From contig NZ_NIVS01000011.1 in the NCBI RefSeq assembly GCF_002205165.1, forward strand, positions 62,001 through 126,000: a DNA stretch of 64,000 nt. Direction: 5' to 3'. Both the position numbers and the translations under genes were made by a program. Positions within the stretch are counted from its first letter, which is position 1. Each line of letters opens with the position of its first letter. Under the pieces are notes generated by a model. It made no database searches. It was not told the DNA's origin and worked only from the letters and a program-made list of their open reading frames with translations. Below are positions 45,991-49,146 of this stretch, piece by piece. The DNA is from Stenotrophomonas maltophilia (GTDB lineage: Bacteria; Pseudomonadota; Gammaproteobacteria; Xanthomonadales; Xanthomonadaceae).

Positions 45991-46935
45991 TCAGGCGGCC
46001 CAGGTCTCGCGGGCCGTCTCGAAATCGGCGGGCGTGGACAGTGTGCGCGCGTCCAGCGATTTGTCGATGCGCTTGATCAACCCGCTCAGCACCTTGCCCG
46101 GGCCGCATTCGGCCACGCGGGTAACGCCGCGGGCGGCCAGCGCCTGCACGCAGCCGGTCCACTGGACGGGCAGGTACAGCTGCTGGACCAGCGCCTGGCG
46201 GATCGCATCCACGCCGTCATGCACGCGGGCATCCACGTTCTGCACCACCGGCAGGGCCGGGGCGCGCCAGTCCAGGCCGGCCATGGTTTCGGCCAGGCGG
46301 TTGGCGGCTTCGCGCATCAGCGGGGTGTGCGAAGGCACGCTGACAGCCAGCTTGACGGCCTTGCGGACGCCCTTCTCGGCCAGCAGCGCCAGCGCGCGAT
46401 CCACGGCAGCAGCGTCGCCACCGATGACGATCTGCCCGGGCGAGTTGTAGTTGGCGGGAACGACGATCTGGCTGCCGGCGGCCTGCTCGCAGACCTCCAC
46501 GACCAGGGCGTCTTCGGCGCCGAGGACGGCGGCCATCGCACCCACGCCGGTCGGGGCGGCTTCCTGCATCAGCTGACCACGCAGGCGCACCAGGTGGGCG
46601 CCGTCACGCAGGGTCAGCGCACCGGCCGCCACCAGGGCGGTGTATTCGCCGAGGCTGTGGCCAGCCAGGACGGCCGGCTGGGCGCCACCCACGGCGTTCC
46701 AGGCACGCCAGACGCCGATGCTGGCGGCCAGCAGGGCCGGCTGCGTGTATTCGGTACGGTTGAGCATTTCCTCCGGACCGCCCTGCGACAGCGCCCACAG
46801 GTCGACACCGGCGCCGTCGGAGGCTTCGGTGAAGGCCTCGCGGATCTGCGGGTGCAGCTCGGCCAGTTCGGCCAGCATGCCCAGCGACTGCGAGCCCTGG
46901 CCCGGGAACACGAATGCGAGATTGGTATCGGTCAC
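45991..46935 (-). CDS. fabD: malonyl-CoA:ACP transacylase
   Basis: 314 residues. FVFPGQGSQSLGML at the start, nucleophile GHSLGEYTALVAAGAL (Ser about 93), Arg in LVRLRGQLMQ, His in SVPSHTPLM and the Gln/Asn NYNSPGQIVIGG. Loads malonyl units on ACP. GTG at 46935 starts just before the conserved N-terminus; a TTG at 46953 is in frame. Confidence 0.97.
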   Translation of the reverse strand: MTDTNLAFVFPGQGSQSLGMLAELAELHPQIREAFTEASDGAGVDLWALSQGGPEEMLNRTEYTQPALLAASIGVWRAWNAVGGAQPAVLAGHSLGEYTALVAAGALTLRDGAHLVRLRGQLMQEAAPTGVGAMAAVLGAEDALVVEVCEQAAGSQIVVPANYNSPGQIVIGGDAAAVDRALALLAEKGVRKAVKLAVSVPSHTPLMREAANRLAETMAGLDWRAPALPVVQNVDARVHDGVDAIRQALVQQLYLPVQWTGCVQALAARGVTRVAECGPGKVLSGLIKRIDKSLDARTLSTPADFETARETWAA

Positions 46936-47024
46936 GCGATCATCCGCCTGCAAAAATCGAACGGCGAATGATAAAGGGGAACGTCGCCCTTCGTCTGTAC
47001 TGCCGCGTATGTGGGGGTGGCCCG

Positions 47025-47807
47025 TCAGGTGAACAGCTGGAGGATGTCCAGGTCGCCGTCGCTGAAGAAGTCGATGCAGATCACGGCCAGCATCAGCACG
47101 CCCAAGGTGGTGGCGCCATGGACGATCAGAATGGAGTGGGCCAGTGCGCGGGCGGAGCGGCCCATCTTCATGCTGGCGCGGGCCAGCCCCTGCAGGCGGC
47201 CGGTGACGTCGTGGGCATGCGCCAGCACCGGAGCTTCGGCACCGTCCATCGCCTGCGCCATGAGGGTCTGCAGCTGTTGCGGGCGCTCTTCGTAGTACTT
47301 GGCGACACCGTAGCCGAACATCAGCCAGTCGCGGGCCTGGGCCTGGGCGAGGTCCATGACTTCCAGGGGATCTTCTTCGAAATCGATGAAGCCGATCTCC
47401 TTGCCATCCCAGGTGAGGTTGCGCGGGAGCGGCTGGCCGAAATACGCGCCTTTGCTGTGCGCCTGGGCGATGGCATTCATCGCGGCGGACACGAGGCGGT
47501 CACGGCCGGCATCATCGGCTTCGCGCAGGCAGGTATTGAACGAGGAGCCGTTGTCGCCCAGCACCAGGGCAGCGTGACCGCTGCCGATCACGTTGGGGAC
47601 GTTGACCCCTTGCGCCTGCAGTTCGGACAGGCGGCGGGCTTCGGTTTCGCGGGCGGCGTCGCCGCCACGGTGCGGCGGTGGGCGCAGGGCATCGAGCTGG
47701 AAGCGGCGGGCGATGAAGTTCAGCAGGCCCAGCGCGACCACGCGGCTTCCTTCGCCGTACTGCTTCAGCCAGGCGCGCTGCCCTTCAATGACGATGGGCT
47801 CAACCAT
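47025..47807 (-). CDS. membrane-anchored kinase-like protein, probable pseudokinase
   Basis: 260 residues, with a small-kinase (Kdo/RIO-like) fold and a C-terminal membrane helix (about 225-247). The N-lobe has IEGQRAWLKQYG with a likely beta-3 Lys; the loop that should read HxDLxxxN is KGAYFGQPLPRNLTW, so the catalytic Asp is Gln while the metal-binding Asn is kept; GFIDFEEDP replaces DFG and keeps the Asp. It may bind nucleotide without transfer. It lies inside the fatty-acid operon between fabH and fabD, behind two hairpins; a link to membrane or LPS assembly is inference. AGGAG fixes the start. Confidence 0.75.
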   Translation of the reverse strand: MVEPIVIEGQRAWLKQYGEGSRVVALGLLNFIARRFQLDALRPPPHRGGDAARETEARRLSELQAQGVNVPNVIGSGHAALVLGDNGSSFNTCLREADDAGRDRLVSAAMNAIAQAHSKGAYFGQPLPRNLTWDGKEIGFIDFEEDPLEVMDLAQAQARDWLMFGYGVAKYYEERPQQLQTLMAQAMDGAEAPVLAHAHDVTGRLQGLARASMKMGRSARALAHSILIVHGATTLGVLMLAVICIDFFSDGDLDILQLFT

Positions 47808-47827
47808 GACAGTTCTCCTGAAATGCG

Positions 47828-47871
47828 TACGGCCCCGTAATGGGGCCGTAACGACAGCGTCACGTTGTCGT
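47828..47871 (-). promoter_or_regulatory. tandem hairpins between fabH and kinase-like gene
   Basis: Two adjacent stem-loops: TACGGCCCC/GGGGCCGTA (47828-47850, perfect nine-base) and ACGACAGCG/CGTTGTCGT (47851-47871, one G-T). They fill the 75-base intergene right after the fabH stop and end 12 bases before AGGAG of the next gene. No T tract follows, so mRNA processing or attenuation is more likely than simple termination. Confidence 0.55.
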
Positions 47872-47882
47872 AACTGACACTA

Positions 47883-48860
47883 TCAATAGCGCAGCAGAGC
47901 AGAACCCCACGTGAAGCCGCCGCCGAAGGCTTCCAGCAGCAGCAGCTGGCCGCGCTCCACGCGGCCGGAGCGGACCGCGTGATCCAGCGCCATCGGCACC
48001 GAGGCCGAGGAGGTGTTGCCGTGCTTGTCCACCGTCACCACTACCTGGTCCATGGACATCTCCAGGCGCTTGGCGGTGGCTTCGATAATGCGCAGGTTGG
48101 CCTGGTGCGGGATCAGCCAGTCCAGGTCGTCCTTGGTCAGCGCATTGGCTTCCAGGGTTTCGTCGACGACCGAGTCCAGCGCCTTGACGGCGTACTTGAA
48201 CACGTCGTTGCCCTTCATCAGGATCGCGCCGCGGGCATTGTCGCCCTCGCCGAAACCGGCCGAGACGCCCACCGGGTTCCACAGCAGCTCTTTCTTGCTG
48301 CCATCCGAATGCAGGTGGGTGCTGAGGATGCCGGTCTCTTCGTCGGCCTTAAGCACGACGGCGCCCGCGCCATCGCCGAACAGCACGCAGGTGGTGCGCT
48401 CGGTCCAGTCGACGATACGGGTCAGGGTTTCCGCACCGATGACCAGCACATGGCGTGCATCACCGGAACGAATGAATTTGTCGGCCACGCTCAACGCGAA
48501 CACGAAGCCCGAACAGGCCGCATTGACGTCGAAGGCGGGGCAACCGCTCGCACCGAGCTTGGCCTGGATCAGGCACGCGGTGGACGGGAAAATCAGATCA
48601 GGCGTGGTGGTGCCCACCACGATCATGTCGAGCTGCGAAGCGTCGATACCGGCCGCTTCAAGCGCACGTACCGCGGCGTGGTAGCCGAGGTCGCTGGTGG
48701 TCTCGCCTTCGGCCGCAATGTGCCGTTCGCGGATACCAGTGCGCGATTGAATCCACTCATCGCTGGTGTCGACCATTTTCTCCAGATCCTGGTTGGTCAA
48801 CACTTTTTCGGGCAAATAACTACCGGTGCCCGCGATCCTCGAGTAGATCCGCTTGCTCAT
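47883..48860 (-). CDS. fabH: 3-oxoacyl-ACP synthase III
   Basis: 325 residues; starts fatty-acid synthesis by joining acetyl-CoA and malonyl-ACP. Catalytic Cys in [13 protein letters not shown] (about 113), His in [12 protein letters not shown] and Asn in [11 protein letters not shown]-terminal [30 protein letters not shown] is typical. Downstream of rpmF across a strong hairpin. Confidence 0.97.
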
Positions 48861-48912
48861 TGCATGTCCTGTAGCTCGATCGCCAAACGTGACGATCGGG
48901 AAGAATGGGGTA

Positions 48913-48942
48913 AAGGCCGCCGCCCGACCGGGCAGCGGCCTT
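48913..48942 (-). terminator. hairpin between rpmF and fabH, attenuator
   Basis: Long stem with outer arms AAGGCCGC/GCGGCCTT and inner GCCCG/CGGGC. On the minus strand TTTACCCC follows. A partial terminator here would uncouple abundant L32 message from the fab genes, as known for other rpmF-fab operons. Confidence 0.7.
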
Positions 48943-48948
48943 CACAAA

Positions 48949-49146
48949 TCAATCTTCTTCGACGGCCGAGTTCGACTTGGTCGTGATCACCTTCTTGCCG
49001 CGGTAGAAACCGTCAGCGGTGATGTGGTGACGCAGATGCACTTCACCGGTGGTCGGATCGGTGGACAGCTGCTTGGCGCTCAGGGCGTCATGCGCACGGC
49101 GCATACCGCGGCGGGACGGGGTGACACGGGATTTCTGCACAGCCAT
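48949..49146 (-). CDS. rpmF: 50S ribosomal protein L32
   Basis: 65 residues. [19 protein letters not shown] start and the [14 protein letters not shown] core are diagnostic; the zinc Cys pairs of some L32 forms are absent, so this is the zinc-free form. It lies between yceD and fabH in the classic order. Confidence 0.97.

Follow-up and report, generated by a model that had tools for sequence, protein, structure and literature searches.

What does a kinase-like protein that lacks the catalytic aspartate do inside a fatty-acid synthesis cluster? The question is raised by a 64,000-nucleotide stretch of Stenotrophomonas maltophilia DNA (contig NZ_NIVS01000011.1; the window hereafter), in which fabH, preceded by rpmF and a YceD-like gene, is followed on the same strand by the kinase-like gene, fabD, fabG, acpP and fabF. 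The kinase-like open reading frame lies between fabH and fabD exactly where the initial annotation had placed it, starts with ATG, and runs for 260 codons, at a distance of 75 nt from the end of fabH and 71 nt from the start of fabD (Table 1). Most of the upstream regions compared from Stenotrophomonas retain its AGGAG ribosome-binding sequence. The closest named relative, from Stenotrophomonas rhizophila, is 98% identical, and a genome search found no second copy in the source genome. To our knowledge, bacterial pseudokinases have been little studied, and we know of few beside core metabolic genes. With a kinase-fold protein encoded in a fab cluster, one can ask directly whether such a fold can serve lipid supply when it transfers no phosphate.

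Table 1. Positions in the window of the kinase-like gene, its active-site codons, its neighbours and the elements in the two flanking gaps.
Feature	Position	Strand	Basis
Asp-less kinase-like protein, 260 aa, C-terminal membrane anchor (predicted)	47025..47807	-	ORF, Bud32 profile match, AF2 model, orthologues
Shine-Dalgarno AGGAG, 7 nt ahead of ATG	47815..47819	-	Read from sequence
Lys15 codon, beta-3 lysine equivalent	47763..47765	-	Invariant, 110/110 distinct homologues
Glu56 codon, alpha-C glutamate equivalent	47640..47642	-	Invariant, 110/110; inside model helix 49-65
Gln125 codon replacing catalytic (HRD/HGD) Asp	47433..47435	-	Aligned with Kdo kinase Asp175
Asn130 codon, catalytic-loop metal-binding Asn equivalent	47418..47420	-	Invariant, 109/109
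Asp142 codon, DFG-Asp equivalent in IDFEEDP	47382..47384	-	Invariant, 109/109
C-terminal hydrophobic segment, predicted membrane anchor, about residues 226-247	47067..47132	-	Kyte-Doolittle
Inverted repeat / RNA hairpin GGCCCC-loop-GGGGCC, no T run	47828..47851	-	Between fabH and kinase-like gene
Promoter-like element GTACAGACG-N19-ATCAT, upstream of fabD	46968..47000	-	Conservation
fabH (context)	47883..48860	-	ORF; orthologous neighbour in relatives' loci
fabD (context)	45991..46953	-	ORF; orthologous neighbour in relatives' loci

The kinase-like fold proposed from the sequence was borne out by profile and structure comparisons. The NCBIfam Bud32 model TIGR03724 matches residues 54-185 (E 5e-7) with 29.4 bits, which does not reach its curated cut-off of 125 bits, and the Pfam match to the RIO family PF01163 (RIO1) is also below threshold (11.4 versus 22 bits). 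In the same Pfam scan, up to E 10, no match was listed to the Kdo/WaaP family PF06293, whose HxDL motif is absent from the protein, or to SelO. Among 52 diverse homologues, 28 match the Bud32 model, and matches of further ones are to Kdo, InaA, APH or lanthionine-synthetase models. The AlphaFold2 model, built on the 52-sequence alignment, has a mean pLDDT of 93.3, and its best match among solved structures is Bud32/PRPK (Z 15.5, 181 residues, 3.1 A), followed by RIO1 and RIO2 (RIO Z 14.8), APH(3') and WaaP (6dfl, Z 12.4); a Z of at least 8 was reached by 933 of 1000 chains, with Bud32 and RIO in the top rows. The Bud32 profile matches, the model and the structure matches make the predicted fold secure and place the protein in the Bud32/RIO/Kdo-type (APH) kinase superfamily, whereas the source protein cannot be assigned securely to a single named family because it missed the curated cut-offs. 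The proposed comparison with Kdo kinase, RIO and WaaP structures thus upheld the fold and pointed to Bud32/PRPK, not Kdo kinase, as the nearest relative. Like Bud32/PRPK, the KEOPS kinase/ATPase and the best match by both profile and fold, the source protein is small, with a short N lobe, a beta-3 Lys, an alpha-F Asp, an IDF motif and the TExxRLxxLxxxGVxVP helix and strand pattern. Unlike it, the source protein lacks the catalytic Asp and the beta-1/glycine loop, and belongs to a bacterial family found in the fab cluster, in which many members carry a C-terminal anchor. The RIO kinases are alike in fold and give weak profile matches to some homologues, and they too differ from the source protein, which is without the catalytic Asp. 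Bud32 is a partner of Kae1/TsaD in t6A synthesis; no KEOPS context was found in the fab cluster, and such genes should not be annotated as kinases or KEOPS subunits.

The active site departs from that of canonical kinases in the catalytic loop, which reads YFGQPLPRN. When the profile of the protein is aligned with that of Kdo kinases from the same bacterial family (hhalign E 7e-5, with a probability of only 62%), F123 G124 Q125 P126 L127 P128 R129 N130 pair with HADLNAHN, and the IDF that is equivalent to DFG pairs with IDF. The loop pairing is backed by a PDB profile alignment, in which kinase chain 9x4g has HGDLTTSN at the same place. Gln125 therefore aligns with the catalytic Asp of Kdo kinase, in agreement with the initial annotation, which read GQPLPRN in place of HxDLxxxN. 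The alignment of orthologues that it had proposed at this Gln gave 106 Gln, three Ala and not one Asp in the 109 distinct homologues with this column (one of the 110 lacks it). The beta-3 Lys, loop Asn and DFG-equivalent Asp that had been read as retained are indeed so: K15, N130 and D142, together with E56, are invariant down to 26% identity, as are the alpha-F D160 and W13, R129, E144, D146, P147 and R159 in the alignment of distinct homologues. Seventeen residues are invariant across the 52 diverse members of the family; the probability that K15, E56, N130 and D142, four nucleotide/metal sites specified beforehand, would all fall by chance among 17 invariant positions of 238 profile columns is 1.8e-5. 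The N lobe is also reduced. Only two strands precede alpha-C in the model, and its first residue falls opposite PRPK residue 46, which we take to lie after the PRPK glycine loop. The beta-1 strand and the glycine-rich loop thus appear to be missing from the modelled protein, so that two canonical kinase elements would be absent instead of one; this loss is a feature beyond those in the first sequence reading. Judged by its sequence, the protein is a pseudokinase under the definition that at least one of the beta-3 Lys, HRD-Asp and DFG-Asp is lost, since the HRD-Asp is missing. Two features of active kinases, the HxD catalytic Asp and the glycine-rich loop, were not found in it.

Distant homologues across the class are also without the Asp (LSQAxxRN, HGRPAxRD and HG[AG]AQxRN), so the loss of the Asp is probably older than the position between fabH and fabD (the fab slot). 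The individual distant relatives L132-L137 read LSQAFSRN, HGRPAFRD, HGGAQTRN and HGAAQIRN. One copy (L061:4001-4660) has lost the catalytic-loop region through an in-frame deletion, which leaves 220 aa versus 260 and may be real or an assembly fault.

The loss of the Asp could be compensated if another carboxylate, E144 or D146 of IDFEEDP, took its place and the protein were a working phosphotransferase. Both are invariant and, in the alignment, follow the metal-binding Asp by two and four residues. However, they align in the DFG segment, outside the catalytic loop, and the glycine loop is missing as well. Furthermore, a separate gene of the Kdo-kinase family is present in each of the genomes tested, so the phosphorylation of LPS Kdo is not a vacant role; all 30 such genes extracted carry HxD and read HADLNA[HQ]N, and the source genome also encodes a canonical kdkA of its own at a distance of about 17 kb. 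We consider a phosphotransferase of this kind improbable. On the same evidence of a separate HxD Kdo-family gene in every genome tested, a role as LPS Kdo kinase was rejected. The WaaP/KdkA LPS kinases (PF06293) nonetheless belong to the same superfamily, as the KdkA alignment and the WaaP structure match indicate, and are likewise bacterial and lipid-related; the difference lies in the loop, HADLNAHN in KdkA and [FL][GS]QPxxRN in the kinase-like family.

The explanation that we tentatively favor, at a little short of even confidence, is an ancient conserved bacterial pseudokinase, probably nucleotide-binding, membrane-tethered in this organism, and tied to lipid or acyl-ACP metabolism. It is favored because the Asp and the glycine loop are gone while Lys, Glu, Asn and the DFG-Asp do not vary. 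The fold, the residue replacement, the residue conservation, the synteny and the purifying selection were all computed. With its Lys-Glu pair and metal-binding Asn and Asp, the pocket would probably bind a nucleotide with Mg2+, and Gln125 in place of Asp together with the lost glycine loop would probably preclude ordinary phosphotransfer. The protein would most likely act by binding or scaffolding, in response to a nucleotide, a partner in the lipid pathway, possibly acyl-ACP or an ACP-using enzyme. Retention of the pocket stands out because several reviewed bacterial pseudokinase families lose the Lys and/or the DFG motif too (PMC12599244). The source family is not among the bacterial pseudokinase families named in that review. 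The GLW pseudokinases described there (PMC12599244) are alike in being proteobacterial, with the HRD replaced and a transmembrane segment after the kinase domain. They are defined by a GLW motif and a beta-3 Lys replaced by Leu/Trp, whereas the source family has an invariant Lys and FGQ or LSQ and falls outside this group.

The same residues leave room for an active enzyme with a noncanonical reaction, for instance nucleotidyl transfer of the SelO kind or, following SidJ, some other ATP-dependent modification. Both precedents lack the HRD Asp and keep the Lys and the DFG-Asp, as the source protein does, and they demonstrate that a kinase fold lacking the Asp can catalyze a different reaction (PMC12599244). 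Such an enzyme would use Lys, Glu, Asn and Asp together with the family-specific R129, E144 and D146, and its target could be a lipid-pathway protein. Over the range of 26-100% identity, neither the nucleotide/metal residues nor several additional polar ones vary; the invariant R129, E144, D146 and R159 near the site fit a noncanonical enzyme as well and count against the pseudokinase reading. On the other hand, neither SelO nor SidJ has a sequence match to the source protein, the glycine loop is absent, and Gln125 is not strictly needed because it is Ala in three homologues. We regard noncanonical catalysis as unlikely on balance, while a serious competitor. A more specific version, to which we assign a low probability, would be an undescribed lineage of Asp-less Bud32-like proteins in the Gammaproteobacteria (in the GTDB sense), with the motifs [FL][GS]QxxxRN, HGRPxxRD and HGxAQxRN followed by DFE, carrying out a noncanonical ATP-dependent reaction. 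Its fab-slot branch, often anchored, would modify or grip ACP or a Fab enzyme and so control fatty-acid/acyl-ACP flux directly.

The C-terminal membrane anchor suggested by the initial annotation corresponds to a real hydrophobic segment, with a best Kyte-Doolittle mean of 2.31 over 19 residues starting at residue 227, and forms part of helix 217-250 in the model. Under the pseudokinase reading, this helix would anchor the domain on the cytoplasmic face of the inner membrane. Most fab-slot members have such a segment, several fab-slot lineages are without it, and none of the members outside the slot has one. The predicted anchor is thus a feature of the source protein and not of the whole family.

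The gene is neither universal nor decaying. A match was found in 106 of 395 genomes of the same bacterial family, covering 22 of 54 genera; the other 289 were unmatched, and some genomes of the same genus are also without the gene. Any role must therefore be accessory. About 100 orthologues have an open reading frame. Of 30 fabH loci from genomes without an intact match, 28 show no such gene in the gap and two have broken copies, and low-stringency tblastn detected no remnants in the fabH-fabD gap of the same-genus genomes that lack the gene. The two broken copies (L164 and L163, from G295 and G325) belong to one genus and show an internal deletion with stops in one and a frameshift in the other. 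They are the only observation in favor of a decaying gene or an annotation artefact, a reading that is very improbable and, as far as decay is concerned, refuted by the selection data: dN/dS is 0.06-0.30 against eight orthologues, mostly somewhat above that of fabH or fabD, and the gene is clearly constrained, under purifying selection. The open frame in about 100 genomes, the good ribosome-binding site and the invariant residues across the 52 diverse members also speak against decay.

The link of the kinase-like protein to lipid metabolism is positional, resting on a conserved fabH-fabD slot and one supported clade. At every locus examined in the same bacterial family, the gene lies between fabH and fabD, down to about 33% identity, with the exception of one diverged second copy. 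This copy (L100:4076-4780), from a single Stenotrophomonas genome, lies outside the fab cluster, is 38% identical, has no anchor, and has the loop VGQPVARN. In other bacterial families of the order, L111 and L112 are in the slot and the rest are elsewhere. The maximum-likelihood tree places all fab-slot members in one clade (support 100/97), with four members from elsewhere nested inside, and the simplest reading is a single entry into the slot followed by descent with repeated loss. For the homologues outside the slot, no consistent or informative neighbors were recognized. One distant Asp-less relative adjoins an MsbA-like transporter gene, as read by eye.

This history would also be expected if the protein had no functional link to fatty-acid synthesis, that is, if the gene had entered the fabH-fabD gap once and then been inherited in place as an accessory gene with expression of its own. 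Since it concerns the pathway and not the chemistry, this explanation overlaps the others. A single entry explains the distribution, many fab clusters with intact fabH-fabD order are without the gene, and relatives elsewhere have unrelated neighbors; the lack of the gene in most genomes of the same family and the inconsistent surroundings outside the slot also weigh against the pseudokinase reading. The flanking gaps add to this. The 85 nt upstream of the gene fold at about -37 kcal/mol and contain the GC-rich hairpin, with a similar stem in Stenotrophomonas orthologues. Throughout the bacterial family, the conserved GTACAGACG...ATCAT element precedes fabD whether or not the kinase-like gene is present, and it looks like an unrecognized promoter; consensus scans for sigma-70 promoters and terminators called nothing in either gap. 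If the hairpin is a 3'-end signal and the element is a promoter, expression of the gene may be separate from that of fabD and the genes after it. A simple operon argument is weakened by the separate expression that the two elements suggest. However, the slot has been kept at deep divergence though members elsewhere (L100 and L114-L116) survive, and anchored forms were found only among slot members. The absence of any fatty-acid link is possible, and we rate it as somewhat unlikely.

The one structural precedent for a lipid link is WaaP, a structural relative of the source protein. The kinase domain of Pseudomonas aeruginosa WaaP binds acyl-ACP tightly and needs it for stability, and its structure was solved in complex with acyl-ACP (PMC6147952), which makes an ACP partner thinkable for the source protein. 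A kinase fold that binds acyl-ACP in the WaaP manner would be marked by a hydrophobic tunnel and a basic patch. By this analogy, acyl-ACP would be a sensible first candidate partner, if a rather doubtful one, and the precedent yields one simply testable prediction. The initial annotation had proposed a regulator that could couple the supply of phospholipid or LPS to fatty-acid synthesis. The deeply conserved position and the binding of acyl-ACP by WaaP (PMC6147952) speak for that part of its claim; the many relatives without the gene, the broken copies in some, and a possible lack of strict co-expression with fabD onwards speak against it. Replacement of PlsX by the kinase-like protein was considered separately. 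The usual order rpmF-plsX-fabH lacks plsX in the window (48860-49146), and plsX (PF02504) was found neither in the source genome nor in 59 of 63 further genomes tested; those that do have it belong to two other bacterial families of the order. A simple replacement was rejected because the 60 of 64 genomes that lack plsX include carriers of the kinase-like gene as well as non-carriers.

The initial annotation knew of no described function, and no description of the gene or family was found in the open-access literature searched; searches with Xanthomonas locus tags, or with fabH/fabD together with kinase or pseudokinase, likewise returned nothing about this gene. Two minor observations concern the loci compared. 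In some Stenotrophomonas loci (L035, L037 and L038), the gap from the gene to fabD is larger by about 400-900 nt. One of them, L037, comes from a record titled Bacillus subtilis SK7B5 and carries a Stenotrophomonas-like fab cluster with 88% protein identity, which is probably due to contamination or mislabelling.
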